Notes under the pieces: model-generated
What the model was told of the DNA's origin: nothing
Databases searched by the model: none
Seen by the model: only the letters and a program-made list of their open reading frames with translations
From: Chrysochromulina parva
Lineage: Eukaryota; Haptophyta; Prymnesiales; Chrysochromulinaceae
DNA length: 64,000 nt
Reading direction: 5' to 3'
NCBI GenBank assembly: GCA_002887195.1
Contig: PJAB01000007.1
Coordinates: 1-64,000, forward strand
In this document: piece after piece, positions 7,385 to 62,965 of the stretch
Position numbering within the stretch: position 1 is the first letter of the stretch
Layout: each line of letters opens with the position of its first letter
Translations under genes and position numbers: made by a program

Positions 7385-10300
7385 ATGGCTGAGTTGACCC
7401 TACCCTCCAAGTTCAAGACTCTTTGGCAGCACTGCTCCGCACTCTCGAATGCAAACTACTGGGTCAGTGTGGATGGGCTCGGCAATGCGGAGCTGGAGGA
7501 CGACATGCGCTCGGCGGCTCACGTCGTGCATGGCGGCATGCTGCACAAGTTCCGCAAGTCTGGCCGCGAGAAGCCGCACCGGCGTTTCGTGCGCGCGACG
7601 GGCGGCACAACTGCCCCGGATGGACGGCGCTCACCTGTCGTGCTTCAGTGGGACAAGAAGGCCGCGCCGGTGGTGCGCGCTGACGAGCAGGTGTACGAGT
7701 CGTGCTTCCAGGGCGGCCCGGCGCCGGACGCCCCTGGTTGCTTCCAGGTCATCCTCGACAAGCGGATGGTCTTCCTCGTCGCCGACTCCGCTGAGGAGAA
7801 GCAGATCTGGGTGCTTGGTGACCCTAAATGGAACCCTAACCCCAACCCAAACTCTCACCTTAACCCGGAACCCGAACCCTAACCCTAGGTGCGCGGCATT
7901 AACGCGCTCGTCGCCCAAGGGATCTGCATGCTGCAGCGTGACGACGAGCGGCTGGGCGCCGAAGTGGCCCCCGACGGGCCGGGCGAGTGGAGCGCAGTCG
8001 TCGATGCCGAGACTGGCGCCGTCTACCTTCGCGACTACTCGAGTGCGTACGAGCACTGGATCATTCCCAACCAGAGTACGCTCTCGATCCGCAAGGCTGA
8101 CCCATGATGACCTCTGATGACCTCTGAAGACCTATTAGGACATCCGATGACCTCTGATGACCTCTGATGACCTCTGATGACCTTCCCGCTCAGGTGCTGC
8201 CGGGCTGCCACCGCCGCCACAGGCCGCTGGCCGGTTGGGTGCACGCCCACCGCCGCTGCCGCCCGAGGCGTACGAGGCCGAGCCGGACCAGAGCGCCCAG
8301 AGCGAGGTTGGAGACTATAATGAGGGCGAAGGCCCAAATATGGACGGAGACCCAAACATGGACGGAGACCCACGCCGCAATTCGCGCCTCACGCGTCCGT
8401 GCTCATCACAGCGCGCGTGCCTGGAGAGCGCACCCGCGCTCAAGCCATCGGTGCTCCGCACAGCACTCCCGCCGCCGGGGCTCATGCAGGAGGCGCCGCG
8501 CCGTGATGACTCGCACGTGCGGGATCCACTGGCTAATTGGATGATCAATCAGGCCGAGGAGCGCGCGCGCGTCTTCCGCGACCTGCAGGCTCAGGTGGAC
8601 TGATTGCCTCTCTGATGGCGTGCATGTGATTGCAATCGATTGGCATCCCTGAGTGCCTCCCTGCGGGCTTGCATGCTGGTCTCCATGGTGGGTTCTGATG
8701 GCCTCCGATGGCGCCTGATGGCCTCGGATGACCTCGGATGACCTCGGATGACCTCGGATGGCCTCGGATGACCTCTGATGACCTCTTATTGACCTCTGAT
8801 GACCTCTGATGACCTCTGATGACCTCGAGTCCGCAGGTGGACGAGGAGGAGGAGCGCCGGAGATTCGATCTCGAGGAGGACGAGCGACGCCAGCGCGAAG
8901 CAATCAGGGAGGCAATCAGGGAGGTGAAGGGCAGGGAGCAGAGGCAGCGCGAAGCCGCCGACGAGGCCGAGAGACAGCGCCGGATGGCGGAGGAGCATGC
9001 GATCGCTCAGGCCAAGTACTGAGTACCTCTGATTACCCCGGATCGGCACACAGATTGGCACTGATGGTCCCTGAATGCTCAAGTGAGCACCCTAGATTAC
9101 CCCTGATTGCATTGCAAGGCATGCAGGCTCAAACAGGACAAGTACCTCTGATTACCCCTGGATGCACCTGGTGGTTTGCAGGTACGAACAGGAAAAGGCT
9201 GCCTGGGAGGCGGCTGAGAAGATTCGTCACACGGCGACGGCGACCGACCAGCTGCAGGGGGCGTTGATGACACGGGACGCGCCCACGCTGCGAGCCGCGA
9301 TCTCAACGTACGGGCCGATCCTCGAGGACGCCGGAGCGTCGTCCCGGGCGGACTTGGAGTTGGCCAAGGAGTACCTGACGAAGCTCGATGCCGCAGCGGC
9401 CACCTTTGCCAGGCAGTACGCTGGATGACCTGATTGAGCCTGATTGCCCCTGAGTAGCCCCTGAGTACGCTGGATGGCCTGATTGAGCTCGGACGGGGAG
9501 ATTGAGCCGCTGAGTACGATGGGTTGCTTCGTACGACTCAGCCGCTGAGTGCCCTCTGAGTTCTTGCTTTCGGATCAAGGAGTGCTTGCTTTCGGATGCT
9601 TGCAGGTACAACGCGGCAGTTGCAGAGCTCCACCAGCTGACCCATGTGGACGTGTCGCAGCTCGAGGCCGGGGCGACGTTGACGAGACTCGGCCACGTGG
9701 CGGAGCGCGCCGCGGCGCTCGGCGCACCCGATGATTTGATGCATGCAGCGCAGGTGCGCGCGAATGCGCTGCATGCAAGCCACGTGGAGCTGCTGCACGC
9801 GCGCGCGCGCGCCGAAGCGGAGGTGCTCGACACGGCGCGCGCGACGCATGCCATCGGGATCGCGGGGGCAGACGCATTGCGCGCGGCGCTCGCACACGCC
9901 GCCTCGGTGCAGCTCGAGGGCGAAGTGCTCACCACGGCGCAGGCGACGCTCGAGGCGCTCCTTCGTGCCGAAGCCGAGCGTGAGCTTGAGCACGCCGCGG
10001 CGACACGCGCGCTGGAGGAGGCGACGGCGGCGGCACAAGCCGAGCTCATGCGAGCTGCGGAGACGGGTGAGACGCTGCGTGAGTTTGGACGCTGCGCCAC
10101 CCTCCGTGAGGCCCTCGAACGCGCTCTCGCTCATAATCTCGCTGTGCCCGTCGAGCGCCGTGTCGAGCACCGTGGGACCGAAGAGGCGCGGCAGACGCTG
10201 ATCTCCCTCGAGCTCGCCGAGCGTGCGCACCTCGACGAGGTGCGCCTGGGATTGCCACTGAGTGCCCTTGATTGCATCGCTCATTCACCATGAGGCAGTC

Positions 10301-12000
10301 TCTGATGGCCTCTGATGGCTTCCCACTAGCATTCCACAGATGGCCTCTCAATTGCCTCCCTCATCAGGTACGGCTCGCCTCCGAGGCCCTCCACGTGGCG
10401 CTCGCGAGGGACGACGAGGAGGCGCTCGCCCTCTGCATGCCCCACGCGCTGCCCCTACGCCCGTACATCTCGCTGATCTCGCCGGGCCTGATCGAGACCG
10501 CGGAGCAGCGCATGCATCTGCTCGCGACGGCGCGTGCCACGAGGGCGCTCGAGACGGCGCTCGCCCATGCGGAGGAGATCGGAGCCGAGAGCGTCCCCGA
10601 GGGCGCGTGGGCGGCGCTCGAGACGGCGCTCCGGCTGGCCGAGCGGGTGGGCTTGCAAGGGTTGCTCGTGCGCAAGGCGGCGGCCAAGCTCAAGGAGATG
10701 ACCGAGGCCGAGGAGGCGGCGCGGCGGGAAGCAGAGGCACTCGAGTACCTTCGCCAGGCAGAGGCAACCAAACGTGAGCAGGCGGAGCGCAGGCGACAGG
10801 TAACGTCCTCTGATGGACTCCTGATGGACTCCTGATTGGCTCATGATGGACTCCTGATTGGCTCGTGCTGGACTCCTAATGGACTCCTAATGGACTCCTG
10901 ATGGACTCCTAATGGACTCCTGATTGGCTCGTGCTGGACTCCTGATGGACTCCTAATGGACTCCTGATTGGCTCGTGCTGGACTCCTAATGGACTCCTAA
11001 TGGACTCCTGATGGACTCCTAATGGACTCCTGATTGGCTGATGATGGACACACTCATACTGGCCTTCATGCTTGGCTCATGTGGTTGACCTCGTGATGAT
11101 TGACCACTTGATGACCTCGTGATTGGCCTGGTGATGACCTCGTGATTGACCTCTTGATTGGTCTGGCAGGAGGAGGGGAAGAAGGAGAAGGAGAAGGAGG
11201 CGCGCCGTCGTGAGCGCAAGGAGGCCGAGCGAGCGGCGAAGATCAAAGAGGACGATGCACTCACGCGCGCTGCGGCGGCGCAGTCGTGGAGCATGCACAC
11301 CGCCCCCGATGGACGCAAGTACTATCACAATCCGATCACCAGCGTGACCACGTGGGACATGCCCGACGAGCTCAGGGCGAGATCGAGATCGGACGAGCTC
11401 AAGGAGCGGCAGGCAGACGAGGCGGCCGCCTCCCCGGCTCCACGGTCAAGCCACGCCTCCTCGAGCACGGCCGTGCAGCAGCCCCCGACCGAGGCGCCGC
11501 GGGCTGTGCAGCAGCCCCCCACCGAGGTGCAGCAGCCCCCCACCGAGGTGCAGCAGGCAGCATACGTCTCTCGTGTGGGCAAGCTCGATGGCGGCGACCA
11601 CGACGGCGCCTCTCGTGTGGGCAAGCTCGATGGCGGCGACCACGACGGCGCCTCTCGTGTGGGCAAGCTCGACGGCGGCGACCACGACGGCGCGACCAAC
11701 GACCCGTCGAATACGAGCGCGACCAAGGTCGAATATGAGGTCGAATATTCGAATATGAGCGCTAAGCAGCTCCGAAAGTTTTGCGCAGCGCGCAACGTCG
11801 AAGTCCCCGACGGCGCGGGTGTGGAGCAGGTGCGCGTACTCGCGCTCGCCCACCGGAACTTGCCCCCCGTGACGTGGCAGCGCACCAAGGCGCCCGACGG
11901 CCGCGACTACTACTACAACCCGAAGACCAAGATGACGAGCTGGACCAACCCCGAGCCACTCGTCTCGGACCAGCCATCCTGCCATGAGTCAGCTAGATGA
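7385..12000 (+). CDS. Eight-exon gene: PH domain, long coiled coil, SAP-like segment and two WW domains
   Basis: Exons 7385-7810, 7889-8090, 8194-8594, 8837-9015, 9182-9415, 9606-10239, 10368-10799 and 11170-12000 join in frame to 1112 residues. Exon 1 plus the start of exon 2 form a PH-like fold (GGMLHKFRKSG to EEKQIWVRGINALV). Exons 3-7 code proline-rich and then alanine/glutamate-rich coiled coil. Exon 8 has WW1 near 875-902 (QSWSMHTAPDGRKYYHNP), three 14-residue repeats near 969-1010, a SAP-like segment (MSAKQLRKFCAARNVEV), and WW2 near 1069-1098 (PDGRDYYYNPKTKMTSW). Intron 2 needs a GC donor (GCAAGG) to stay in frame and is the least certain join. The architecture suggests a phosphoinositide- and proline-motif-binding scaffold; the role is unknown. 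Confidence 0.7.
7811..7888 (+). repeat. Intron 1 of the PH/WW gene, built from telomere-like CCCTAA units
   Basis: 78 bp, GTGCTT donor and CCCTAG acceptor. The body is degenerate CCCTAA/AACCCT repeats. The acceptor AG is supplied by the last repeat (CCCTAG). Splicing restores the C-terminal helix of the PH domain (IWVRGINALV). It is interstitial, not a chromosome end, because genes continue on both sides. Confidence 0.75.
8595..8836 (+). repeat. Intron 3 of the PH/WW gene, TGATGACCTC-type tandem repeats
   Basis: 242 bp. Much of it is short repeats of the form (C)TCTGATGAC or CTCGGATGAC. The 9-mer CAGGTGGAC spans both the donor (8592-8600) and the acceptor (8834-8842), so either copy codes Val-Asp. 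Intron 2 (8091-8193) has the same repeat type. Confidence 0.8.
10800..11169 (+). repeat. Intron 7 of the PH/WW gene, TGGACTCCTRAT minisatellite
   Basis: 370 bp, the longest intron in this gene. From about 10805 to 11045 it is tandem copies of TGATGGACTCC, TAATGGACTCC and TGATTGGCTCGTGC, followed by TGATGACCTC-like units. Donor GTAACG and acceptor GGCAG; phase 0. Confidence 0.8.
11569..11694 (+). repeat. Three tandem 42-bp coding repeats
   Basis: Three near-identical 42-bp units in exon 8 of the PH/WW gene, coding the 14-mer SRVGKLDGGDHDGA three times. High identity implies recent expansion. Confidence 0.9.
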
Positions 12001-12461
12001 GGGCGCGCCCGTCGTCTCGTGGGAAGGGGGAGGGCGGGATTTGTGGCAGTGGGGGGGAGGGGGTGTGCGCGCGTGGCAATGACAACTGCTGAGACAAGAG
12101 CCAAGACCAATTGCAATACCTGTCGCGGTGTCTGGATTGCAGAACAACGGGAACGTCGCCGGCGTGTCTCGTCTGTGGGCGGCGGCAGCGCGTGAGGTGC
12201 TTGCCGTTTTCGTCTCGTGGTAGCGTAGAACGGCCGCGGCAGCCGGATTTTTTTCGAAAGGCGAAAGGCGAAAGACGAAAGGCGAAAGACGAAAGGCCAC
12301 GATTCCACAATGACGATCCGCGTACCACGATTCCACAATGTGATGAATCGGTCAAGTCCGCGTTACACGAAGCTGACTCGCCCCCGGTCACCTACACAGG
12401 TCACCACCCCTTGCAGATGCGCCATTCGGGGCCATTAGAGGTCATTAGGGGCCATGAGAGG
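12001..12461. other. Intergenic between convergent genes
   Basis: Shared 3' flank of the PH/WW gene and the dehydratase gene. It holds a GGCGAAA/GACGAAA array at 12255-12297, two copies of ACGATTCCACAATG near 12298-12340, and a 27-bp segment (12399-12425) that repeats the dehydratase gene end at 12460-12486. No separate gene. Confidence 0.6.
12255..12297. repeat. GGCGAAA/GACGAAA heptamer array
   Basis: About six tandem heptamers, intergenic, of no known function. Confidence 0.85.
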
Positions 12462-13933
12462 TCACCACCCCTTGCAGATGCGCCATGTATCGATGATCGT
12501 GCGGTCGGTCGGCTCGGCGACGACGTACACGTGCTGGTGCTGGTGCGTCGCGGCGCACGAGTGGTGCGGCGCGATGGCGAGCAGGCTACCAATCGGGTAC
12601 CGAGCGTACTCGAGAGGAGCGCCATCCGCCGTGCTCACCTCACCGCACTCCTGCTTGAGATTGGAGATGCAATTAGGGAGGCAATCAGGGAGGCAATCAG
12701 GGATCATCATCTCACCTGCTTGAGATTGGAGATGCGTAGCTCGGGGTGCTCGGGGAACCCGCCGTAGCCGGTGGCAGCGCCCTGTCAGAGGTCATTAGGG
12801 GCCATTAGAGGTCAGTCCAGCCGTCCGAGGTCATTCGAGGCCATTAGAGGTCATTCGACGCAATCAGAAGCGATTCGCACTCGGGTGGAGCATCCTGTCA
12901 TTAGAGCCATTAGAGGTCATTAGAGGCAATCAGAGGCGATTCGCACTTGGGCGGAGCATCCTGTCATTAGAGCCATTAGAGGTCATTAGAGGCAATCAGA
13001 GGCGATTCGCACTTGGGCGGAGCATCCTGTCCAGCCACAGTCGATGAGGAGGGTGTTCGAGGACGGGTAGTGACCAACGACGCGAGTGAGGACCCTGACT
13101 GCCACGTCGCGCACCGCACACGTGCCGAGCGCCACTTGCGTCATGTCATAGTACAGAAAGTTGCCCGGGTGCATCTCGTCGATCCCATCGAGGTGACTCG
13201 GGGCAAGGCAGCACGTGGGAGTCGACCCCACTCCCGCCAAAGGCACATTGAGGCCGATGGAACGCAGCTTGTGTGCGAAGCCCACGGTGACGTCGCGCTC
13301 CTGCTCGGCAATGCGCACGATCTCGGCCGCGTTCGCCGCGTCATACGAGTGGCCGCCATGCGTGTAGATGCCCGCGAGCGTCGTCACGCCGCTCTCCGCG
13401 AGCATGTGCACCAGCGCCACACTCGACGGATCGTTGGGATCGCAGCCATCGCGGTGGTACCCGCAGTCGACGCCCACGAAGACGCTGAGCGGGCGCGCGA
13501 GCATCTGCTCACGCACCTCGGGCCGTGACAAGCGCGCGATCAGAGCGGCCGCCTGCTCAGCGTGGTCTATCATCACGTGAAATTGTGCAAGCCCAGCGTG
13601 CAGCTTCTCCACGTCGTCCACCTTGTCGGCGGTGAGTGGCACCGCGTAGAGGATGTCATCGAAGCCAGCATCCGCAAAAAACTTGGCCTCAGCAATCGTG
13701 GAGACGGTCACACGCCGGCGCGTCCCGCCAGTTGCAATCACCCCTGCTTCAACCGTCTTGCAAGTTTTCAGGTGCGGCCGCAAGGAGCAGCCTAGTTCCT
13801 CTGCGCGCACTCGCATTCGTGCCGCATTCGCTTCCAGCGTAGAGCGATAGCACACTAGCGCAGGCGTCCTAACGTCGTCGAGCGTTAGTGCCTTGATAAC
13901 GACGAGAGTCGAGAAGATGAAAGCAAGCAGCAT
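12462..13933 (-). CDS. D-serine dehydratase-like PLP/Zn enzyme (DSD1 family, alanine-racemase fold)
   Basis: Exons 13933-13013, 12781-12716 and 12650-12462 join to 391 residues. ATG 13933 opens a hydrophobic N-terminus (MLLAFIFSTLVVIKAL), either a signal anchor or a leader. The fold-type III PLP motif RPHLKTCK (Lys near residue 56) is the family hallmark; it is usually PHxKTHK. VGVDCGYHRDGCDP, GIYTHGGHSYD and LIDCGWTG follow. The spliced C-terminal domain reads GYGGFPEHPELRISNLKQ and then APHHSCAAT, whose His and Cys match the Zn ligands of eukaryotic D-serine dehydratases. Likely reaction: D-serine (or D-threonine) to an oxo-acid plus ammonia. Without splicing the C-terminal domain is lost, which supports both introns. 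The terminal exon may have one more alternative ending. Confidence 0.85.
12651..12715 (-). repeat. 65-bp intron ending in a copy of the preceding exon end (dehydratase intron 2)
   Basis: On the minus strand the last 20 exon bases (12735-12716) recur exactly as the last 20 intron bases (12670-12651). The intron starts GTGAGA and ends AAGCAG. The middle is three AATCAGGGAGGC-type units. Splicing at the two identical copies gives the conserved frame. Confidence 0.9.
12782..13012 (-). repeat. Dehydratase intron 1 with 66-bp tandem units
   Basis: 231 bp. Units 12871-12936 and 12937-13002 are 66-bp tandem copies, and a third partial copy (13003-13031) runs across the donor into exon 1. Each unit therefore carries a copy of the last exon bases (GATGCTCCGCCCAA core) plus the donor GTGCGAATCG, preceded by an AG. 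The donor is in the copy next to the exon; the acceptor is GACAG at 12786-12782. Confidence 0.8.
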
Positions 13934-14041
13934 GCTGGGCCAATGCAGCACAAGCGCTTCGAGGGTTTGTGAATTCACAGTCCACCTCAAGCGCCGTTAC
14001 GGGCACATCTGCGTCACACCAAAACACCGCGGCAACTGCCA

Positions 14042-23020: not shown

Positions 23021-23065
<45 letters not shown>

Positions 23066-24753
23066 CTCGCAGCCGATGGACACGAGCAGCAGTAGCCGTA
23101 CGCGAGCACGGGTGCCCGCCGAGAGCCCCGAGCCGGCCGCGCCGTCCGACCCGGCCGAGGCGGCAGAGGCCGCCAAGGCGCGCGGCAACGACCTGTACAA
23201 GCGCGGCGAGTACAGCAACGCTGTCGACTACTACTCGAAGGCGGTGCGGCTGCAACCCACGAACGCTACGTACCGGATCAACCGGGCGGCGGCGGCGCTG
23301 ATGCTCGAGCGCGCGGAGGACGCGCTCTCGGACTGCCAGGCGGCGCTCGAGTCCGAGCCGACGAACATCAAGGCGCACGTTCGAGGGGCTAAGGCCCGCA
23401 TCATGCTTGGTCAGCTGTCCGAGGCGCGCCGGCACCTCGAGCGGGCAGCGACGCTGCCCACCGCCGACGCGACAGTCGCGACGGAGCTTGCGGGGCTGGG
23501 CGAGCTCGAGGCGTCGCTCAAGTCCGGCAAGGAGGCGCTAGAGCAGGTGGGTGGCGCGGCTGCGCGGGAGGCTTTGAGGCTCTTCACCTCGCTCTCGCAG
23601 CGCTGCCCTTGCTCCGAAACGGTCGCGTGCCTGCAGATGGAGGCGCTCATGCGGGCACGTCCCGACCAGGGGCCGCAGCAGGTGGTGGCCGAGTCGGCGC
23701 GCTGGCTGCGCAAGTCGGCGGACAACCCCGACCTGCTCTGCGTGCGCGGCAAGAGCCTGTACAAAACAGGCCAGCTCGAATCGGCTCTCAAGCACTTTGC
23801 AGAGGCGCTGCGGCAGGATCCGGACCACTCGGCGTCTCGTCAGATGCGAGCTCAGCTTCGTCAGATCGAGGAGGCGAAAAAGGCGGGGAATGAGGCCTTC
23901 TCTGCCGGCCGGTACGCCGAGGCGATCCAAAAGTACACCGAGGCACTCGAGATCGACCCCGAGAACGCTGACCTGAACGTGACGTTTTGGACGAATCGAG
24001 CGACGGCGCGCTTCAAGAACGGCGAGTACACGGCGGCGGTGGCGGATTGCGACGCGGCGCTCGCGGCGGCGCCGCGCCACATCAAGGCGCTGCTGCGGCG
24101 CGCGGCGTGCAAGCTCGAGCTCGAGGACTACAAGGGCGCCATCAGTGATTACGAGGAGGCGCAAGCCATCGAGCCAGAGGACCAGACCATCCGCCAGGGG
24201 CTGCGCAACGCGAAGCTCGAGCTCAAAAAGTCAAGTCGCAAGGACCTGTACAAGGTGCTCGGGATCACGAAGAACGCGACGGACCACGAGATCAAGAAGG
24301 CATATAAGAAGAAGGCGCTCGAGTGCCATCCGGACCGTTTGGGCAGGTCTGATGGCCCCTCATTGCCTGCTGTTCCGCATGCCTTTGTCCCTCCCTCAAT
24401 GCATGCTGACCTCGAGCATGCATCCGGACCGTCTGGGCAGTGCCCTGATTGCCCTCCCTCAATGCATGCTGACCTCGAGCATGCATCCGGACCGTCTGTG
24501 CAGTGCCACACCCGAAGAGAAGGCCGTCGCCGAGAAGCGGTTCAAGGAGGTAGGCGAGGCGTTCGAAGTCCTCTCCGACCCAGCGAAAAAGCAGCGCTGG
24601 GATAGCGGGGAGACTCTCGACGAGCTCAACGGGAACGGCGGCGGGCGCGGCGGCGGCGGCTTTGGCGGCATCGACCCGTCGGATCTCTTCCGCGCCTATG
24701 CGCAGCAGGGCGGCGGTGGCTTCGGCCGGGGGGGCGGCTCCCGAGGCTTCTGA
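22530..24753 (+). CDS. TPR/J-domain co-chaperone (DNAJC7/TPR2-like)
   Basis: Exons 22530-24346 and 24504-24753 join to 688 residues. ATG 22530 (MSKTAEDHKADGNKAF) starts right before the first TPR; upstream only a TTG extends the frame. Two or more TPR blocks precede an acidic run and a poly-glutamine run near 165-180, and further TPRs follow to about 560. The J domain is LYKVLGITKNATDHEIKKAYKKKALECHPDR (HPD near 600). The splice gives [42 protein letters not shown], as in DNAJC7, and then a Gly-rich tail. DNAJC7 shuttles clients between Hsp70 and Hsp90. The acidic/polyQ insert between TPRs is unusual for the family. Confidence 0.9.
22911..23063 (+). repeat. GAC/GAG acidic tract followed by (CAG)n
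   Basis: In-frame simple repeats in the J-domain gene: Asp/Glu codons to about 23010, then about 14 CAG codons (23022-23063). Confidence 0.9.
24347..24503 (+). repeat. J-domain gene intron made of two 63-bp units, each ending in a copy of the exon end
   Basis: 157 bp, donor GTCTGA, acceptor TGTGCAG, phase 2. Units 24389-24451 and 24452-24514 are tandem copies. The exon-end 20-mer at 24327-24346 recurs at 24421-24440 (one mismatch) and 24484-24503 (two mismatches), so the acceptor AG is the end of the third copy. The middle copy is a possible alternative acceptor. Confidence 0.85.
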
Positions 24754-25112: not shown

Positions 25113-26746
25113 ATGAAAAACGCGCAAGAGCTCATCAGCACGTGGTCAGGTCTTCCCGAGTGCTCGCTCGTCGTTTTCCGACACTTGCAGAAGACGGGCG
25201 GTTCATCCATCGTGCGTGCCTTCCATGAACTGGAGCGCGACATGCTATGGACCATCTACGGCTACTGGAGCCCATGTTGGCAAGGCCGCTCGCAGCTCGT
25301 GGCCCGTGGGCGAATGCGCTGGCTGCGCATCGTGCGAATGCTCGGCGAGCGCGCCAACTCGTCAGCCGCAGGCACACGCATGCCGCAGAGCTGGCTGCGC
25401 GAGTTAGAGTCCATGCCATGGCCGACGCGAATGCTCTTCCATTTGCACCATCCAGACTCGATGGTCTGCGGTGGTCTCGAGTCTGTGCAGGCGGAGCTTG
25501 CCAAGCTGCGCCCGGTGTTACCTGCGCTGGGCTGCCGCGTAACCGTGGCCATGGTCGTGCGCGAGCCATGGTCCTTTTTTGTGAGCTGGTACTATTATAT
25601 TGGCGCCGCACGCTGCGGCTGGTGCACCTTTGAGCGCTTCGTCGCGCTCAACCCGAACGCACAGTCGCACTTGACGCTGGGCGGCGCGCCGCGCATTTAC
25701 AGCGACAAGCTGCGTGCTCAGCATGCGCGGCGCGACCCTGTGCTGCTCGCGCGCGTGCACAAGATCGTCGCAGGCATCGACGTGATCGGCGTGACTGAAA
25801 AGCTTGACGAGTTCATGCTCGAGCTGTGCGACGCTGCCGGGCTGCGCGTGTGCCCGAGGCTGAGCGTGCGCAACGTGCGCAGCCCAGGGGCGGCCTTGGG
25901 CGCGCTGCGGGAGGTCGCGTTGCGCGCCAACGCCTCGGTGCTCGACGTCCGCCCTGACGAGAGCTCAGGCTCGTTACACCGACGCGCCGTTGCGCTCGCT
26001 GGCTGGCTTGACGAGGCTCTGTACAGTCTCGCCTCGACTCGTGCTCGCCGTCGTGGGCAACCGGACCGCGCGAGGCTCGAGGCGTGGCGGATGCAGCCGA
26101 TGTTCGAGAGTAGCGGCTGCTTCGGTTTCGCGCCCGTCACGGCGCCCGCACACAGCGCGCGCAAGATGAAGCCGTCCATCGCATCTTCAGCCCGTTCCAT
26201 AATAGGATCAACCCGTTCCGAGGCCATGACGAGTGCGTTCCCCGTGGCGCCCAGAGACGGTGCGGGTGGGCGCAAGGAGAGCCAGGGCGTCTTCGCCGTG
26301 CCGTTTGAGCACACGTCGTCCCGACAGCACGCCTTCGCCCTCGAGTTGATGCAGAACCTGAGCGTCGTTCCGATGGCAGAGCGCGAGCAGGTGAAGCGCG
26401 AGCTGCTACGATTCCAGGCCGAGCACGCATGCAAGTGCTCACCACGGCGCCCCCCTTCCCCCCACAGGTGAAGCGCGAGCTGCGCGAACAGCTGCGATGC
26501 GCTGACGTGCGTGCGGCGCTGGCGGGTGTGGGGGCGCGGGCGACGCGCGACCTGCCCGCCGTCCTGCGTCCATGGTTGCTGCCAGAGCGTGCGCAGCCAC
26601 TGCAGCAGGGGCACGGCGGCGAGCTGGCCGGGTCTGGAGATTGGCGCGAGATCGTGCAGCACCAGGGCGAGCTCGTCGCCATGTGCTGCACGAAGGTACA
26701 CTATGCGCATGCGCCACGTTTGGATAAGGCGAGCTGCTCGACGTGA
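25113..26746 (+). CDS. PAPS-dependent sulfotransferase (membrane/glycan family-like)
   Basis: Exons 25113-26390 and 26468-26746 join to 518 residues; an unspliced form would stop at 26471. The start is ATG 25113 (MKNAQELISTWSG). The 5'-phosphosulfate loop is FRHLQKTGGSSIV near residues 21-33, and the 3'-phosphate motif is VVREPWSFFVSWYYY near 148-162. Between them is LFHLHHPDSMV. These fit the sulfotransferase-2/Gal3ST-like fold rather than cytosolic SULTs. The C-terminal half past about 320 is poorly conserved-looking. No clear signal anchor is seen, so an upstream exon is possible. The acceptor is probably a carbohydrate. Confidence 0.75.
26391..26467 (+). repeat. 77-bp intron bounded by 19-bp direct repeats (sulfotransferase)
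   Basis: The 19-mer at 26388-26406 recurs exactly at 26465-26483. Each copy contains CAG|GTGAAG, so the first gives the donor and the second the acceptor junction. Phase 0, and the spliced frame is the same whichever copy is used. The last 40 bp (26428-26467) are a sequence found again near 45.7 kb. Confidence 0.8.
26428..26467 (+). mobile_element. Candidate introner-like element, copy 1
   Basis: CATGCAAGTGCTCAC, then C/T, then ACGGCGCCC, a pyrimidine run and CCCCACAG. It matches 45671-45707 almost base for base, apart from the pyrimidine run. Here it forms the 3' end of an intron. Two copies in 64 kb suggest a family; mobility is inferred. Confidence 0.45.
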
Positions 26747-40851: not shown

Positions 40852-41645
40852 ATGCAGTTCAACCGTGCACCGGCGGACCGTGTGTGCAAACCGTGCGGGC
40901 CGCAGCCGCTGGTGGAGAAGGCCGCATCCTCAACGTCCGTCTCGGATCAGCAGCTCGAGGCGGCTTATGAGATTATCCTAAGGGCAATCGGCGAGGATCC
41001 CAGTCGCGAGGGCTTGAGGAAGACTCCTGCGCGCGCGGCCAAAGCGATGCGAGCGCTGACGTCGGGGTATTCTGTCGAGCCCAGCGAATTGGCGCGCGAC
41101 GCACTCTTCACTGTCGAACCTCGAAGTGAAGAGCCGCTTGGGATGGTCGTCGTGGTGCGTTACCCCTATCTTTTGCCTATCTTTCGCCCATGCACTTTCG
41201 CCCGTATGCACGACGCCACATTCTAGCTCACCCTCGCATTCGTCTCGGCTGTCCCTCCTGCTCGCAGCGCGACATCCGAATCAACTCCTTGTGCGAGCAC
41301 CACCTGCTACCCTTTTACGGCCGGTGCCACATCGGCTACCTGCCCGACCGCGCTGTGCTTGGCCTCTCGAAGTTTGCGCGCGTGGCGGACGTGTGCGCGC
41401 GCCGGCTGCAGATGCAGGAGCGGCTCACAGAACAGATTGCCGACGCGCTCATGGAGGCCTCAGCAGCGCGCGGCGTGATAGTAGCAGTCGAGTGCGCACA
41501 TATGTGCATGTGCTCTCGTGGCGTCAAGCAGACGGAAACAACGACGTTCACGGCGGCGCAGCGCGGTGCCTTCGCAAAGGATGAGGCGCTGCGCCGCGAC
41601 TTTTGGCAGCAGGTCAATTCGGGCACGCCCACCTCGCGACTGTAA
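40852..41645 (+). CDS. folE/GCH1: GTP cyclohydrolase I
   Basis: Exons 40852-41154 and 41268-41645 join to 226 residues, the usual length. ATG 40852 is the first in-frame ATG. Exon 1: [30 protein letters not shown], the typical start of the domain. Exon 2: [52 protein letters not shown], and [29 protein letters not shown]. Zn ligands Cys and His (CEHH) and the HxCM cysteine are present. Makes dihydroneopterin triphosphate from GTP, the first step of tetrahydrobiopterin or folate synthesis. Unspliced, exon 1 loses the active site. No signal peptide seen, so likely cytosolic. Confidence 0.93.
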
Positions 41646-43284: not shown

Positions 43285-45639
43285 ATGATCTATCCGACCG
43301 CCCGCGCCATTGCCCTCGGACTGCTGTGCGCTCCGACGGCGGCCCTACTGCTCGGGCCATCGCCGGCGCCCGTGTGCCGTGCGTCGCCGCGCGCCGCGAG
43401 CGCGGCCCTGCGCATGGCGGAGGGCTTCACGAGCAAGGAGGAGCTGCTGCTCGTTGACGAGGTGGATCGCAGCGGCGTTGAGGTTGATGCGACCAGGGAG
43501 TCGGTGACGGCAGTGGATACGTCTCTGGTCAACGCGGTCAAGTGGACGCCGTCGGCGCGCGGTGAGCCCGGCAAGACGCCGCGCGACCTCGCCTTTGGCC
43601 CCATCAAGGCCTACTGCGCCGACCTAAAAGAGGTGAAGCGGCGGCCGACGCGCACGGTCGAGTGCGGCCCGATCAAATTTGGCTCGGAGCACCGGCTCGT
43701 GCGCCAGACTATGGCGACGACGCTCACCTCCGACGTGGAGGGCACCATCGAGCAGGTCATCCGCTGCGCCGACGAGGGCTTCGACCTCGTGCGCGTTACG
43801 GTCGTCGGCATGAAGGACGCGATTGCGTGCAAGAAGATCCGTGAGGGCCTCGACGCGCGCGGGTACAATATCCCGCTGGCCGCTGACATGCACTTCGCGC
43901 CCAAGGTTGCGCTCGCCGTTGCCGACGCCGTCGAGAAGATCCGTATCAACCCGGGCAACTTCGTGGATGGGCGCAAGACGTTCGAGACGATGGTGTACGA
44001 GACGGATGAGGACTACTTCAAGGAACGCGCCTTTTTCGTCGAGGCGTTCACGCCGCTCGTGAAGAAGTGCAAGGAGCTCAACCGGTGCATGCGCATCGGC
44101 ACCAACCACGGCTCGCTCTCGGCGCGCGTCCTCTCCTTTTACGGCGACACGCCGCGCGGCATGGTCGAGAGCGCGATCGAGTTCGCCGACATCTGCCGCT
44201 CGCTCGACTTCCACAACTTCGTTTTCTCGATGAAGGCGTCCAACCCGCTGGTGATGGTGCAGGCGTACCGGCTGCTCGCGGCCGAGATGGACCGGCTCGG
44301 CTGGGACTACCCCCTCCACCTCGGCGTCACCGAGGCGGGCGAGGGTGAAGATGGGCGAATGAAGAGCGCCATCGGCATCGGCGCTCTCCTCGCGGACGGT
44401 CTGGGCGATACGATCCGCGTGTCGCTCACGGAGGACCCCGAGTTCGAGTACGCGCCGTGCAACCGGCTGGCCGAGATTGCGGACGCCAAGCTCTTGCCCT
44501 CCGCGCTGGCCACCCAGCGCGCCGTGCCTCCGTACGTCGACATCCGCGACATTACCTCGTTCGCGCGCCGCTCGGGCCGCCTTCCAGCTCAGAAGGAGGG
44601 CGACACCTTCGACTACCGTGGGCTGCTCAACCGCGACGGCTCGGTGCTGTCGGCGGTGACGGCCAAGGAGCTGCGCGAGCCGAACACTCTGTACAACGCT
44701 CTTGGGTGCAAGACCGTCGTCGGCCTCCCCTTCAAGGACATTGCGACCTCCGACACGCTCATGCTCCGCGAGCCGCCGGCTCTCGATGACGAGATCGCGC
44801 GCCGCACGCTCAAGCGGCTGATGGACGTGGCGGTGCTGCCGGTCGTGCCCGCGGATGCGCTGGCCAAGGCCCCGATCGAGGGCGCGGTCGCGCTCATGTC
44901 CCTCGACGAGGCGGCCTCCGGTGCCAAGAAGCCCGCGTGCGCGTCGCGCGTCGTCCTGTCCGTGCGCGGCGACGAGTCCGCAGAGCTGATGAACAAGATC
45001 AAGGGGATCGAGCACGCGTTCGTGCTGCTCGACCCGCCCCCGACGCTCTCGCGCCTGCACGCCGCGCGCCGCCTCTTCAGCCTCTTCGGCGCGCTCAACA
45101 TCGACTCGGCGGTGATCCATCATTTCCGTCCCGTCCCGTCGGACAGCAGCGAGCTCGCCCTCCAGATGGGCACCGAGGTGGGTGGGCTGCTCGTCGACGG
45201 TCTGGGCGATGGCGTGCTCGTCGAGCCGCAGACGCCGGGCAGCTTCGAGCTCAGCATGCTGCGCACGGTCTCATTCGGGCTCCTTCAGGGAAGCCGCATG
45301 CGTTCCGTCAAGACCGAGTTCGTCTCGTGCCCCTCGTGCGGCCGCACCCTGTTCAACTTGCAGGAGGTGACGGCGCAGATCTCGGAGCGCACGGGCCACC
45401 TGCCCGGCGTGACGGTCGCCATCATGGGGTGCATCGTCAACGGCCCCGGCGAGATGGCCGACGCCGACTTCGGCTACGTGGGCGGTGCACCTGGCAAGGT
45501 CGATCTCTACGTCGGCAAGGAGGTTGTGCGCCGTGGAGTGGACAACGAGGTTGCATGCGACCAGCTGATTGAGCTCATCAAGGAGTACGGTATGTGGAAG
45601 GACCCCGAGGAGAAGGAGGCGATGGAGGCCGTCGCATAG
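43285..45639 (+). CDS. ispG: Plastid 4-hydroxy-3-methylbut-2-enyl-diphosphate synthase
   Basis: 784 residues from ATG 43285 (only a GTG lies upstream in frame). N-terminus MIYPTARAIALGLLCAPTAALLLG is signal-like and is followed by an Arg/Ala/Ser-rich transit-like stretch, as expected for a plastid of secondary origin. The mature enzyme begins near 90. VECGPIKFGSEHRLVRQTMATT, LAADMHFAPKVALAVADAVEKIRINPGN and LGVTEAGEGEDGRMKSAIGIGALLADGLGDTIRVSLTEDP are GcpE hallmarks. The large central insertion is the plant/algal form. The 4Fe-4S cysteines are in CPSCGRTLF near 682 and GCIVNGPGE near 714. Converts MEcPP to HMBPP in the MEP isoprenoid pathway. No intron needed. Confidence 0.95.
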   Translation: MIYPTARAIALGLLCAPTAALLLGPSPAPVCRASPRAASAALRMAEGFTSKEELLLVDEVDRSGVEVDATRESVTAVDTSLVNAVKWTPSARGEPGKTPRDLAFGPIKAYCADLKEVKRRPTRTVECGPIKFGSEHRLVRQTMATTLTSDVEGTIEQVIRCADEGFDLVRVTVVGMKDAIACKKIREGLDARGYNIPLAADMHFAPKVALAVADAVEKIRINPGNFVDGRKTFETMVYETDEDYFKERAFFVEAFTPLVKKCKELNRCMRIGTNHGSLSARVLSFYGDTPRGMVESAIEFADICRSLDFHNFVFSMKASNPLVMVQAYRLLAAEMDRLGWDYPLHLGVTEAGEGEDGRMKSAIGIGALLADGLGDTIRVSLTEDPEFEYAPCNRLAEIADAKLLPSALATQRAVPPYVDIRDITSFARRSGRLPAQKEGDTFDYRGLLNRDGSVLSAVTAKELREPNTLYNALGCKTVVGLPFKDIATSDTLMLREPPALDDEIARRTLKRLMDVAVLPVVPADALAKAPIEGAVALMSLDEAASGAKKPACASRVVLSVRGDESAELMNKIKGIEHAFVLLDPPPTLSRLHAARRLFSLFGALNIDSAVIHHFRPVPSDSSELALQMGTEVGGLLVDGLGDGVLVEPQTPGSFELSMLRTVSFGLLQGSRMRSVKTEFVSCPSCGRTLFNLQEVTAQISERTGHLPGVTVAIMGCIVNGPGEMADADFGYVGGAPGKVDLYVGKEVVRRGVDNEVACDQLIELIKEYGMWKDPEEKEAMEAVA

Positions 45640-45670
45640 GCGACAATCGAGTCCAGCGCAGCAGCAGCAG

Positions 45671-45707
45671 CATGCAAGTGCTCACTACGGCGCCCTCTCC
45701 TCCCCAG
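45671..45707 (+). mobile_element. Candidate introner-like element, copy 2
   Basis: Matches 26428-26467: CATGCAAGTGCTCAC, T in place of C, ACGGCGCCC, a shorter pyrimidine run and CCCCAG. It lies 32 bp past the ispG stop, so it would be a 3'-UTR intron or an intergenic insertion. CAG repeats flank it. Confidence 0.45.
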
Positions 45708-45722
45708 CTCTTGCACGGGAGC

Positions 45723-45723
<1 letters not shown>

Positions 45724-45768
<45 letters not shown>
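45724..45768. repeat. (CAG)n microsatellite
   Basis: About 15 CAG units downstream of ispG; a shorter run lies just before the element at 45658-45671. Confidence 0.9.
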
Positions 45769-51725: not shown

Positions 51726-51818
51726 CTCGCGGTCACCGGGCTCTCTGAGCTCTCGAGGCTCTCGAGGCTCTCGCACTCGCTGCGCCGATGCGAATCTTGA
51801 ATGCCTGAAGTCTGATCT

Positions 51819-56872: not shown

Positions 56873-56994
56873 TGTTTTTTTGTCACCTCCACTCGCCTGC
56901 TTGCGGAATTTGGAATCCAGTTAGAATCTGTCCGCGCACAAGTCCTGGATTTGACGGCGATCTCGGTCGCGCTCTGCACCCCAGGGCCAGCGAC
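56873..56994. promoter_or_regulatory. Short divergent promoter for two mitochondrial-type genes
   Basis: 122 bp between ATG 56872 (minus) and ATG 56995 (plus). Spacing seen; shared control inferred. Confidence 0.4.
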
Positions 56995-57753: not shown

Positions 57754-58439
57754 AGCGGGGCCCACAGCACATTGTATACTTGAGTTCGAGAAAGGGTGCT
57801 CCGGCCCTTGGTGACTGGACCCCGGGGACCACACGCCAAGGGATGAGCGAGCGCGTGGGGCGTTGCCGAGTGCCGAGCCGAGTCGGCCACGTCCGCGGGC
57901 TGCACGCGCGCCGGTGTGTACGAGTACAGCCTGTTGGTGTCGCGGCCGTGCCCAAGCGTGTGCGGCAGCTCGCGCGCCGCGGGCACGGCGGCACCGTACG
58001 GGCAAACGGGTAGCGTGTTCGCGGCACCAAACCCCACCCAGAAACGGCGGGGCGGGGCGCCCATGATGCTACCGCCGTACCCGGGAGTGCGGCGCGGGCG
58101 CGCGGTCTCGATGTAATCAATGTTAAATCAAGACCATTATAAATCAAGAACGAAAGTGGTTACCTTTACTACGTGTTGGAACTTGGATCTCACTTCTCAG
58201 ATGCCCACCTCAGGGAGAGTAGCGCAGCCGATTAGAGGCGAGGCGCCCGGACAGGCACCAGTGACGCACGCGACCCCTGCGGGGCCGTCCGGACGGCGCG
58301 GCTGGCGGGCGCGCGCCGGACGGGCCACGAGCCGGTCGGGGCTCTGCGCTGACGACCTCAGTCAAACCGTGATCCGTGTTCCGTCACCCGGTTGCGTGTA
58401 CAACAGCAGACGCATGCGAGAGTCCAGCCTGTAGGACAG
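57754..58439. other. Intergenic between convergent genes, nothing recognised
   Basis: 686 bp, GC-rich except for an AT patch near 58115-58200. Frames here are arginine-rich shadows. No RNA gene identified. Confidence 0.5.
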
Positions 58440-59102
58440 TCATTGTGGATGCAGCTCGACCGAATCGTCGGCCACAATCCACTTTATGTCGGCGACCTGC
58501 CATTCCGTTCCTTCGGCTGCATCTCCCGTCGCGCTCAGCTTCCTCTCGAACGTCCACTTGCTCTGCTGCAGCCTGGGCGGGTCGGAGAGGGTCGAGTAGC
58601 AGCGCCCATGACGAAAGTCGTCCAGCGTCTCAGTCTGCAGAACTCGGAAGGAGACTTCGAGATGCGCGAGGCTGTGATCGGTGTTCGCGGTACGTGCTCG
58701 GCTCAAAACTGCTGACAATATGGTGTAGTCCTCTGGCTCGGAAGGAGCCAAGCTCCCCTTGGTGAAGGTCTCGGCGAGCAGGCACGAGGGCTGAACAAGG
58801 CTCTCAAGTGCTGACCAGTCTCTCCGGCCGATGAGTTGATGGCAGGTCACGTATGCCTGCCGGGTGCCGACCAGGAAGTCCTCAAGGTTGAATTCGTGCT
58901 CTGAATGTATAGCCCTGAGCGAAAGCCTTGTCAGTGTGCGCTCCCAGAGCGAAAGCCCTGGTTCGACAAACTTTGGATTATCCATCCAGCAGCTGACTTG
59001 TTTCTCGGGTCCCAGGGTGCGCGAGAGCTCATGCAGGGAGAGCAGGCTGCGCACGCGCCGGAGGCCGCTAACCGCAAGGCCTCTGGCAGAGAGGCATCGC
59101 AT
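58440..59102 (-). CDS. Second Tim44/mL45-domain-like mitochondrial protein
   Basis: 220 residues from ATG 59102. A basic presequence-like start (MRCLSARGLAVSGLRRVRSLLSLHELSRTL), then LSLRAIHSEHEFNLEDFLVGTRQAYVTCHQLIGRRDWSALESLVQPSCL. This is the same FLxGxxxAY...W..L..LV pattern as the gene at 56995. A beta-rich half follows (HLEVSFRVLQTETL, KWTFERKL, WQVADIKWIVADDSVELHPQ), typical of MAIP1/Tim44-like folds. Convergent to its neighbour, 686 bp apart; too diverged to be a recent duplicate. Confidence 0.55.
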   Translation of the reverse strand: MRCLSARGLAVSGLRRVRSLLSLHELSRTLGPEKQVSCWMDNPKFVEPGLSLWERTLTRLSLRAIHSEHEFNLEDFLVGTRQAYVTCHQLIGRRDWSALESLVQPSCLLAETFTKGSLAPSEPEDYTILSAVLSRARTANTDHSLAHLEVSFRVLQTETLDDFRHGRCYSTLSDPPRLQQSKWTFERKLSATGDAAEGTEWQVADIKWIVADDSVELHPQ

Positions 59103-59351
59103 TCGTCCCGCCACTATGGGCGAAAATCAACGAAACACCGAAAAATTAATTTCCTCTCCTCAGCCCTAAGTGAAACGGCTGAGAGAACGCACGGTCGCAG
59201 CGGGGGACAGCGTGCTTGTGTATCAGTTCAGGGACGTAGCGTTGCTGGAGCGCTCGCAACAGCGCGTCTTCACGTGAAAAATCACGCAACACCCACGATG
59301 CGCGGCAACACAAGCGCATAAAGCCGCTCGATCGGCCTTGGACACCGGACC
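59103..59351. promoter_or_regulatory. Divergent intergenic region
   Basis: 249 bp between the mitochondrial gene (minus) and the TBC gene (plus). No box recognised. Confidence 0.35.
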
Positions 59352-62300
59352 ATGCGGTCTGCAGTCTCTTCATTCTTCGCCGAAGACCCCGACAAGGTGC
59401 ACGACAGGAAGGTGAGCGGTCTGCCGATCGACTTGAATGTGACCGCTGCCAAGACCTCGCTGCGCCGACTGCGGGATGCCATCGAGGCCACCGTCACCCT
59501 GTACACATTGAGGCCGCCGCCGAAGAAAAAGGGGGGGGTGCCGCAGCTCTTGCTGCCAGAGATGGCAGAGTGGAGCCGTCACGAGGCCTTCTGCGGCGGC
59601 ATCGCGAGCGGTGAGCTGATGCACCGCACCGCAGCGCGACTGGCGGCAATAGAGGAACTGATCATAACCCAGCGCACTGCCGTCAGCGCGGTCGTGTCGA
59701 TCTGTCTGGGCGACGAGGCCAAGGCACTGTGCAAGAAGGGGCTTGATGCGATCTATGCCTTCGAGCTGATGATACGCGACGCGAGCGACGCGAAGGAGGC
59801 GGCGAACAAGGCCCTCAAGCGGGCAACGTCGTCGCGAGACTCCGCGTTAGACGGTGAGCTCAAGGCGGCCAGCATAAAGGACGAGAGGAAGATGGTGGCG
59901 GCGCATCAGGCGGCGAAGGCCGAGCTCGAGAAAGCGATGGCCGCGATCGAGCAGGCTGAGGCAACGCTCGCGCGTGCCGATGCGGAGCTCGTTCGCCTCG
60001 TGGAAGAGGCGCAGCCAGTGGCGCTCAAGGTGGCCTCCTCCGCTCGGCGCGACGCGGAGAACGGACCCCTGAGCCAAGCGGCGGAGGAGCTGGCCAAGGT
60101 CTATCGCTCTTTTGCGCGCGGCGTAGTGACGGTGCGACAGGGCGACAGTTTGCCTACAGATTACAACCCGAGTGTGAAGCGCCTCGCGCCAAAGGAGACA
60201 ACAGCGCGCTACGCGGCGTATGTGGTCCAGTGGACGCTGGCCAAGCGCCGCTGCAAGGAGTCGGCGGCGCTGATCGAGGAGTTCAGCAAGGCGACCCTCG
60301 ACACGCTGCTCGCACCGGCCCAAGAGAAGGCCACCATCGAAGCGCTCGCGCATGAGTGTGAAGGCGCACAGCTCATCTCGAGCCTCCGCGCTGTACCATT
60401 CGAGGGCAAGCCAGCCCATGAGGAGGCCGAGCGCGCCTGCAGAATGGCGCTCGCCGCTCTGGTCGCGGTGTTGGGCGACTTCCGAGTCCTGCTCAAGGGG
60501 CAGGTGACCCTGGCCGAGGAGTATGAGAAGAAGGACAAAGCTCTGAAGCTACTCGTCGGGAAGCGCGACGAGGCCGCTCATCAAGTGAGCAAGCTCGAGG
60601 GCGAGCTGGGCAAGTTGATCGACAAGAGGGAGGAGGAGTGGCACGCTGCGGGCAGCAAGGAGGGGGCCAAGGCGGTCGCCGCCGTCGAGAGGGCGAGCGC
60701 TTCCCTCGAGAAGAAGAGCGCGGAGCATGCGAAGCTCGTCGAGGAGGTCGCGCTCAAGACGACAGCTCTCGAGCAAGCGGCGGCTGAGATCGAGGCCTTT
60801 GCAGCCGGCCTCTCTGCAGACGGCTCCGGCTCGGTACGAATGCATTCTCGCCTGGTCGAATTCATTCTCACCTCCCTTGCTCATCTTCTCCGCATCTCCC
60901 CGCGTCTCCCCGCATCTGACCCGCATCTGACCCGTTTCTGCGGGTGTATCTCGCACGTATCTGCGCCTTCCAGGTGATGGAGCTCGTCGCGTACCCGTTC
61001 GCCGAGGGCGTGCGTGCCTTTACGACCTTGTGTGCGAGCCGGGCCGAGCAGGCGGGCACCAACCAGCCTTTCTTCGAGCACGCATCGGCTGCAGCGCTGT
61101 GGGCCATCAAGCTTTATGAGCAGAAGGAGCGCGAGGCCGCGGCGAAGGCGTTGGCGGAGGGTCCGTCGCTCGCGCTCCGGGCCCTCGCCTTTGCTTCCCA
61201 ACGTGCAGAGGAGGCGGGTGCACGTGCAAGGGCGCGGGCGGCCGAGAAGCTGAGCGAGCTGCAGGCGCGGAATGCCGCGCGACAGGGACGCGTCAACAGC
61301 GCTATGAGCGATGAGGCTGGCACGGGCAACCGTCGGGCGAACCAGGGTGACGTGCCTCCGAAGCCGCTGCTGCTTGCCGTCTTGAAGCCGCCGTGCAGCG
61401 CGCTCGAGTGGGAAGAGATGCTCCCGGCGCTTCGTCAGGCGGCGGCGAGCAGGGGGGGGATAGGGAGTGGGGTGGCGGGGAGCACGGACGCGGGCCTCGT
61501 CGTGGTGGGTGCGGGCTTGGACGTGTGTAATGGCTTCTACAAGCACGTGCCGGACGACGCACTCGCCAACGGCAAGCCCTTCTTTCGCAACGATGATCGC
61601 AGCGTGCCTTTCTTCCAGCAAACGACCATCGGCTGGTCCGACACTGAATGGACGCGTAAGAAGGGATACCCCGAGGGTGTTGGCTGTTGGGGCATTGCGT
61701 ATGACGGCCATCATCGGTACATGGCGCGCGGCGACTCACCCTTCCCGCCCACGACGGGCTGGGAGGTGCGAGAGGATCCCAAATGGAAGTATCCTTCGGT
61801 GGCACCCACGCTCGACCTTGCGCATATGGCCGTGCCTCACACCGAGCGGCTGCTCAGGGGTGTCCACCCCGAGGCTGTCGCCAAGGTGCTGCTGGCGTTG
61901 ATGCAGCTCGACGATTGTGATGAGTCGGGCCTGGATGCGGCTGCAGCCTCTGCCGCTCACATACGTAGCCAGCTGGTCGATGACAGCAGCGCCGAGAGCG
62001 TCTCGATGAGAGAGGCCAAGCCGGAGATGTGCGGAGATCTAGACGTCATCCTCAACGATATCCCTCGAACGTGGCCAGACTGGCAGATCGAGACAGTCGG
62101 CGAATCCGGACGCTTTTCTGCCGAAGACTTGAGGGTCATCCTCGATGCGCAGGTCTGTGCTGCCGAGTCCGACCTCGGAGCTGTCGGCTACTCTCAGGGG
62201 ATGGCGGACCTAGCAGCATGGCTCCTGATGAGACCGCTCTCTCGAACGGCAGCCTATAGCGCGCTCCGTCGCTTCTCGTCTCTCCCGCTGCTGCGCCTCT

Positions 62301-62965
62301 GCTGGAGGCTCGATCTCGATGAGTGGGATGCGCTAGGTGCGGCGGCGCGCGCGCTCCCGTGCATTTGCCGGTGTATCACCCGTGCCCTCAACCCCACATC
62401 TCTGCCCGTCGCCCGTACGCTCCCCATCTCCCCCGCAGGAGAGCTCCATACAGCCCTCATCCGACGAGATCGGCCGGTGGTCGCCGCGCACCTGGACCGG
62501 ATCGGTATCTCCGCCGCCATCTACCTGCCCGAGTGGCTCATGCCGATCTGGTGCCGATCGCTCTCCGAGGAATGCGTCGCTGTCGTCTTTTCGCTCATGC
62601 TCCTCGAGGGCGATGCGGTCATCCTCCTCGTCGCAAGCGCCGTCATCGCATGCATCGAGGCGGAGCTCCTCGCGACGCGCGACATTGCGGTCGCTAGGAA
62701 GCTCATGTCCGATGCACCTCAACGCATCTCGCTCCCAGCTCTCGTCGGCGCTCTTGCGGCTTGCACGCTGACCCAGGCCGATTTGGCGCCGCTGTGCGCC
62801 TTTCCTAATATGGAAGGCCTGGCGCCGCCTGGCCTGGCACGCACATTATCGAGCTTGCAGCTCATGACGAATCTTGCTTGGGACAGAAGCAGCTTGCAGC
62901 CATCACCGACCTCGCCGGCAAGCCACGGAGAACCGGAGAGCAAGGCTGCGATTGACATGGATTGA
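59352..62965 (+). CDS. TBC-domain RabGAP with long coiled-coil N-terminus
   Basis: Exons 59352-60833, 60974-62336 and 62439-62965 join to 1123 residues. Residues 1-590 are helical, charged coiled coil that could be BAR-like. Near 670-780 lies a WW-like/NGxY domain: VVGAGLDVCNGFYKHVPD, GWSDTEWTRKK, GCWGIAYDGHHRYMARG, GWEV. The TBC domain near 845-1060 has both catalytic fingers: ILNDIPRTWP (IxxDxxR) and GYSQGMADL (YxQ). Then IGISAAIYLPEWLMPIWCRSLS and LMLLEGDAVILLVASAVI. It would stimulate GTP hydrolysis on a Rab. Intron 2 (62337-62438) is 3n with no stop, so a retained form adds 34 residues inside the TBC domain. Confidence 0.8.

Follow-up and report, generated by a model that had tools for sequence, protein, structure and literature searches.

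The window, a stretch of 64,000 nucleotides from Chrysochromulina parva (contig C7, PJAB01000007.1, positions 1-64000), belongs to a eukaryotic assembly of 45.07 Mb in 2,199 contigs (GC 0.635) and carries, among others, a sulfotransferase-like gene, a D-serine-dehydratase-like gene, a J-domain gene, UBE2N and a WW gene, names assigned by reading the sequence, without database search. A preliminary description had claimed that introns throughout the window are bounded by direct repeats that include both splice junctions. Such repeats proved real at the sulfotransferase, dehydratase and J-domain genes but not window-wide, most introns having no clear repeat. The repeat-bounded introns are very probably introner insertions with a long target duplication, in which a short module (E) stands between two copies of a target stretch (T) in the order T-E-T; this degree of confidence concerns the arrangement and excludes the agent that moved the module.

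26391..26467, forward strand: family C introner intron of the sulfotransferase-like gene, 77 nt, comprising a T copy, a spacer and a 41-nt module; core at 26427-26451, end CCCCCCACAG, 19-nt exact repeat
26388..26406, forward strand: T copy 1 (CAGGTGAAGCGCGAGCTGC), its GT being the putative 5' splice site
26465..26483, forward strand: T copy 2, spanning the 3' junction into the downstream exon
26427..26451, forward strand: family C core GCATGCAAGTGCTCACCACGGCGCC, exact; genome-wide exact copies 157 + 121, control 0
45670..45707, forward strand: second family C module, lying 3' of the stop codon of IspG; search for a T repeat negative (score 1)
12651..12715, reverse strand: intron of the D-serine-dehydratase-like gene, 65 nt; T (GCATCTCCAATCTCAAGCAGG) at 12650-12670 and 12715-12735, 21/21
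12398..12486, reverse strand: T-E-T at the dehydratase gene's 3' end, placed by reading at or after the stop codon; unit 61, T 28/28, spacer of TAATGACCTC type
24347..24503, forward strand: J-domain intron, 157 nt, splice product CHPDRLGSATPEE; T at 24327-24346, inner copy from 24421, end copy at 24484-24503

The repeat of the sulfotransferase-like intron reads CAG/GTGAAGCGCGAGCTGC (a slash marks the splice junction) and is exact over 19/19 positions. That of the dehydratase intron, exact over 21/21, lies almost wholly in the exon adjoining the donor and reaches one base past the junction; here the 3' splice site would come from T and the greater part of the 5' splice site from the module. The J-domain intron has a 63-nt tandem unit and a 20-nt repeat matching at 18/20, with a third copy within the intron. 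Splicing at the junction proposed in the preliminary description, which is better than that of the gene finder, yields ECHPDRLGSATPEEKAV.

Introns were predicted by a two-strand hidden Markov model gene finder of our own, whose training set comprised the window, 200 kb of contigs C1-C5 and four short loci (one being itself a part of the window). Forty-five predicted introns were usable (19 in the window, 25 in the 200 kb of C1-C5 and 1 in L002); two introns close to sequence ends and L004, a part of the window, were left out. Donor and acceptor flanks of each intron were compared for likeness, with 5,000 rounds of shuffled pairings as the null. An identical in-register run of at least 8 through the junction was present in 4/45 introns and in 1/19 of those in the window. 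The mean junction run was 2.98, compared to 2.06 ± 0.14 for shuffled pairings (0/5,000 shuffles as high), a rise owed to this minority of introns, but with AG/GT excluded flank identity was raised only slightly (0.307 versus 0.283 shuffled; 243/5,000 shuffles reach 0.307). Three donors (in L002 and in the sulfotransferase and J-domain genes) were placed wrongly by the gene finder, which also set the dehydratase acceptor off by 3 nt and that of a non-introner APC2 intron off by ∼5 residues (judged against relatives), and made some introns that are surely false, such as 45631-45726, which passes through the IspG stop. Upon correction of three window junctions (sulfotransferase, J domain and dehydratase), runs of at least 8 were present in 4/19 window introns, the J-domain one with 2 mismatches tolerated. 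The UBE2N introns, missed by the gene finder and placed by eye, exhibited runs of 3, 3 and 1 (8, 10 and 5 matches of 22), and thus lend no support to the claim for which they had been cited. Direct repeats are not a general property of introns here, since only a minority have long runs and identity is barely raised without AG/GT.

A scan of the window and C1-C5 (264 kb, low-complexity repeats filtered), independent of gene models, detected 23 exact repeats of at least 14 nt at spacings of 45-134 and 0 at the control spacing of 445-534. Twelve touch predicted introns, 10 lie entirely in predicted exons and 1 is intergenic; all 10 wholly exonic repeats have a spacing that is a multiple of 3, and these are mostly ordinary coding repeats.

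Two module families and their target duplications

Families B and C are groups of similar introns at non-homologous gene positions. Further copies of the terminal ∼41-nt stretch of the sulfotransferase intron lie downstream of IspG, at a distance of 19 kb, and in contigs C2 and C77; the family C module is ∼40 nt long and reads GCATGC..GTGCTCAC..GGCGCC, followed by a pyrimidine tract and CAG. With at most 2 mismatches, the family C core GCATGCAAGTGCTCACNNNGGCG has 849 + 848 matches in the genome, and the reversed pattern has 0. From 100 genome places of the core search, the first 60 loci were taken by list order, the window's two copies, C77, two copies of C184 and three of C210 being omitted from this first list; a further 20, none of them on the first list, were taken by list order from a search with the 3' half, places near loci already taken being skipped. 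An end-anchored test used 54 of 75 core matches (11 were dropped for having no [CT]AG end within 60 nt and 10 for a module longer than 50 nt). An upstream repeat of score at least 10 was present in 40/54 copies, as compared to 1.5% for shuffled flanks, and in 33 of these 40 the repeat begins with GT, which is no part of the search pattern. In well-preserved copies, the repeat fills all the space from the donor to GCATGC, with full-span T of 47/47 (L080), 35/35 (C2), 30/31 and 27/27 (L073), and 22/22 (L093). In an unanchored test of 79 of the 80 loci (L124 was dropped), 55/79 scored at least 12 (null, 1.3%), and the repeat started 0-4 nt before the acceptor's end in 31/41 acceptor-bearing loci. 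T ranged from 13 to 48 nt in 28 near-identical repeats (at most 7% mismatches). Some family C copies (L027, L069, L106 and L107) have a 5' extension resembling family B units; where extended copies read CTTGCATGCAAG, GCATGC lies inside a 12-nt palindrome.

Family B has the 3' end ..GATTGCCTCCCTCATCAG/GT. Its pattern, GATKGCCTCCCTCATCAGGT, had 921 + 821 genome matches with at most 1 mismatch (reversed control, 0) and itself contains GT, so that the GT after CAG is there by selection. Twenty loci were taken by list order from 100 places, omitting the C42 array, C5 (already included) and later C43 copies. A repeat of score at least 10 was present at 17/29 family B ends, compared to 2.8% for shuffled flanks, and at 11/23 when the first end of each locus was counted; examples are 33/33 (C2), 30/30 (L059), 25/25 (L057), 19/19 (L045) and 14/14 (C5). 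Longer family B bodies are minisatellites of CTGATNNCC type, and whole T+E units stand in tandem in L050, L052 and L055.

These arrangements suggest a mechanism in which a short module E would insert in a gene and the target stretch T (13-48 nt where the copies are near-identical) would end up on either side. In family C, E would bring the branch-point-like GCTCAC, which probably serves as the branch point, together with the pyrimidine tract and the terminal CAG. Splicing would then run from the GT opening the first T to the CAG closing E, the mRNA regaining one T and its reading frame, with the 5' splice site supplied by the target and the 3' splice site by E. In a mirrored form (dehydratase, J domain and L027), T would lie on the exon side, the 5' site coming from E and the 3' site from T. 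The core of an E without tract and CAG may stay exonic, inserted in frame and in either orientation.

A family C core, tract and CACAG/GTGAG were also found near the last bases (4495-4517) of the IMG/VR contig IMGVR_UViG_3300027760_000958 (L065). This sole core-bearing IMG/VR contig is otherwise phage-like, as judged by eye from its open reading frames; a chimeric end is likely, and a virus link was rejected. The family B pattern had 0 matches in IMG/VR.

Splice junctions, an empty site and copies in exons

Over 112 aa that include two family C junctions, the spliced product of the APC2 gene in contig C2 aligns with a solved APC2 chain without a gap. Among the relatives P0241-P0246 (one named, Prymnesium parvum), 5/6 align without gaps at the four introner junctions (two C, two B), while P0242 has a 1-residue gap beside the last of these; in P0248, P0250 and P0251, the B junctions lie outside the coverage. 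ERO1 exhibited no gap at the L104 junction. Eight of 10 spliced segments had a Pfam match (E ≤ 0.001) overlapping the junction, two of these being below the Pfam cut-off, and 2/10 had none. Homologue-anchored junctions and lengths not divisible by 3 indirectly suggest that the T-E-T introns are spliced. The P0251 gene model contains an unspliced-looking insertion at APC2 IIQ/VYV, the same site as one C introner, which is either a shared old intron or a second hit.

P0247, a metagenome protein, is 92% identical to the APC2 N terminus over 44% of the predicted APC2 and continues out of frame through the gene. When aligned to the DNA, it is without exactly 25 aa, equal to 75 nt, at the introner with T copies of 35/35, so that a single T remains, without a module. 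The adjacent introner is present at its start in P0247; its T copies agree over just 14 nt, one position being mismatched. Read in this manner, P0247 shows an empty site at one APC2 introner. Introner insertion with target-site duplication, one of two origins offered in the preliminary description, is borne out by this site and by the sulfotransferase inter-repeat module, which is matched ∼1,700 times. Recent gain, which the preliminary description had read from the long repeats, is supported at one locus.

Family C cores without an acceptor are for the most part flanked on both sides by direct repeats within open reading frames and, depending on frame, add the peptide HASAHHGA, MQVLTTAP or ACKCSPRR. 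By rule, 14/22 acceptor-less copies had a repeat score of at least 12, and the unit was divisible by three in 13/14 of them, compared to 9/41 copies with an acceptor (Fisher p = 3.8e-6). On inspection by eye, the one unit not divisible by three, L027, reads as an intron of the mirrored form, and two of the 13, L100 and L113, read as introns that the rule had missed; among the remaining copies, 11/11 are divisible by three. Judged by coding score, L029, L097, L098 and L103 are sense to the frame and L035, L038 and L040 antisense. A head-to-head core pair with a ∼35-nt spacer (L090, about 172-300) lies in a GH38 alpha-mannosidase frame, where 91 residues occupy 71 profile positions; no T was found at this pair. 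Insertion does not need splicing, since acceptor-less copies have units divisible by three and lie mostly in open reading frames. In C5 at 5619-5709 (L021), an exact 28-nt repeat flanks an unrelated 35-nt stretch in a predicted exon (unit 63), possibly another exon insertion.

Several observations weigh against these interpretations. No T of score at least 10 accompanies 14/54 family C copies, including the second copy in the window, and no repeat of that score accompanies 12/29 family B ends. Loci were chosen by list order, not randomly. Splicing is predicted from sequence, and the single empty site was read from a translated metagenome protein, not DNA. Among the 11 exonic copies, L076 is without a positive sense coding score. 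The exonic repeats without a module are likewise in frame (10/10), and the frame rule therefore shows translation, not module origin.

Other features of the window

10240..10367, forward strand: WW-gene intron, 3' end family B-like (AATTGCCTCCCTCATCAG/GT), weak repeat (run 4)
8595..8836, forward strand: WW-gene intron, minisatellite body, 9-nt repeat CAG/GTGGAC (9/9); run of at least 8 in 0.9% of mismatched pairs
41155..41267, forward strand: GTP cyclohydrolase I intron, ordinary, run 1; splice equal to a public Chrysochromulina gene model, 226/226 aa

The WW gene had been listed among the anchors for repeat-bounded splicing, and its intron at 8595-8836 (CAG/GTGGAC, 9/9) upholds this, but most of its introns are weak cases explicable by consensus. 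Window introns 8105-8183, 8694-8826, 10810-11158 and 12787-13031 are filled with 10-12-nt minisatellites (TGATGACCTC and kin), many units of which hold a branch-point-like CTGAT; WW-gene intron 7811-7888 consists mostly of AACCCT-like, telomere-like repeats.

The GTP cyclohydrolase I splice product is identical to jgi/Chrpa1/6120 Chrysochromulina_OHIO (226/226 residues), the next organism-named match among the 120 matches listed being Prymnesium parvum at 51%. For IspG (43285-45636), the best match among the 120 listed reaches 68%, though the genome is that of a haptophyte, and the readable named organisms are ones we take to be diatoms; this may reflect either transfer or a sampling gap. Taxonomy by IspG was set aside as misleading, given the Chrysochromulina match of GTP cyclohydrolase I.

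Known introners and the mode of insertion

Introners were reported in 175 of 3,325 genomes surveyed by Gozashti et al. 2022 (PMC9860276). The same paper cites target duplications of 3-9 bp for earlier introner families, not every known family having one, and describes an introner from a Chrysochromulina TARA genome that has a 4-bp duplication, carries its 5' site and co-opts the 3' site (PMC9860276). With introners thus known, including from a Chrysochromulina, the "undescribed process" of the preliminary description was too strong a term. Like those introners, the present families consist of many similar introns at unrelated sites in an aquatic microbial eukaryote and carry one splice site while co-opting the other from the duplicated target; a further listed likeness is that Aureococcus introners lengthen the transcript (PMC9860276). 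In contrast, T is 13-48 nt here, outside 3-9 bp, acceptor-less copies persist in exons, and family C carries the 3' site, unlike the TARA introner as described (PMC9860276). Amoebophrya introner elements (PMC7789003) share direct repeats overlapping the intron borders and a mobile-element-like spread, but their direct repeats measure 3-5 nt, they have inverted repeats (8-20 nt) and their splice sites are mostly non-canonical, whereas here no inverted repeat was seen and splice sites are GT-AG. Rogers and Bendich 2025 (PMC11782384) reported that 213/213 introns have repeats close to their borders, 4-30 bp long (mean 11.4), sought within up to 80 bp per border and mostly of less than 100% similarity; in the present case, the repeat is in register and was set against a shuffled null, the module is named, and there is an empty site. 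Mirusvirus introners have been mentioned (PMC12768974), and the C. tobin genome averages one intron per gene (PMC4580454). Introners being already known, the parts not found described are the long duplications and the in-frame exon copies, for which no description was recognised among the literature matches listed, open-licence papers only.

Chance likeness from the AG/GT consensus explains weak cases, namely UBE2N and most WW-gene introns, but is refuted for the long repeats by 40/54 copies against a null of 1.5% and by 23 repeats against 0 in the distance control (though 10/23 are wholly exonic); as a general account, it has practically no weight. The other origin offered in the preliminary description was that introns arose without a mobile element, by tandem duplication of AGGT-containing exon DNA. 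It would fit repeats that begin at the splice junction and the tandem whole units in L050, L052 and L055, but it would make the entire intron an exon copy. In the family B and C copies that were read, for which it was rejected, the intron is not a whole copy of the adjoining exon: the stretch between T copies is not exon, family C has the same ∼40-nt module at ∼1,700 matches, and the relative P0247 has one T and no module. Overall, we regard tandem duplication as very improbable. Reverse splicing of an excised intron into mRNA, followed by reverse transcription and recombination, leaves no long duplication and moves a whole intron, not its 3' ∼40 nt. This pathway, proposed for fungal introner-like elements (PMC9860276), cannot account for cores in exons or in antisense and is contradicted by the exon copies and T; it was rejected as exceedingly improbable.

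As for the mover of the T-E-T insertions, we tentatively favor target-primed reverse transcription of a short RNA by machinery of the long interspersed nuclear element (LINE) type. A LINE-type endonuclease/reverse transcriptase would nick exon DNA and copy into it an RNA of ∼40 nt with little beyond a branch point and 3' splice site; the 5' splice site would come from the long target duplication. LINEs and short interspersed nuclear elements (SINEs), when inserted by this route, have target duplications of variable length; the variable T length (13-48 nt) shares this property, and the overlap or abutment of T with the core end in 8/14 acceptor-less copies also speaks for it. L128 contains an endonuclease (PF03372) frame and a reverse transcriptase (PF00078) frame together. 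Against this mover, no poly(A), A-rich or simple-repeat tail was found, family C ending in a pyrimidine tract plus CAG, and SINEs are generally longer than the ∼40-nt module. No clear excess of 5' truncation was apparent genome-wide, the 278 full cores versus 513 3' halves being expected from ∼7% change per site, and the 20 loci chosen by 3' half mostly retain GCATGC. Neither a core nor a B end was found in the 2.9-3.0-kb flanks of five reverse transcriptase loci, whose 3' ends were not established, and no LINE partner sharing the module 3' end was found in those flanks, which contained three 9-nt B-unit matches only. The reverse transcriptase loci L126-L133 (contigs C1434, C2182, C324, C103 and C34) are of at least two kinds, with likeness of 69% between L129 and L130 and of 64-82%, in pieces, among L131, L132 and L133.

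The meeting of T with the core end could also reflect break repair with templated filler, whereby a staggered break closed by copying another introner would leave both a duplication and an insert. Among the 14 acceptor-less copies with a repeat score of at least 12, the eight that meet the core end have overlaps of 4 nt (the search maximum) in four, 2 in one, 1 in two and 0 in one, with a GGCG background of 1.8% in these loci as the sole null. Random filler would not be expected to place a single module, always starting with GCATGC, at very many sites, and this route appears doubtful. A cut-and-paste DNA transposon (miniature inverted-repeat transposable element) with an exceptionally long target duplication is unlikely as well. 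By a published view, most introners spread as DNA transposons (PMC9860276), and the head-to-head core pair of L090 and the exon copies in both orientations would agree with this, but no terminal inverted repeats were seen in single modules (by reading only), and T length varies over 13-48 nt and is not fixed.

Where new introns come from has been asked for a long time, and for most introners the answer given has been DNA transposons (PMC9860276). If target-primed reverse transcription is the true mover, new introns would arise here by a retro-type, SINE-like route that leaves the exon copies behind as unspliced by-products. The two copies of each long duplication could serve as a clock for the intron they bound, the same module can be compared as an intron and as an exon insert, and a close relative offers at least one empty site; what turns an insertion into an intron (the GT of the target, and the tract and CAG of the module) therefore becomes directly testable.

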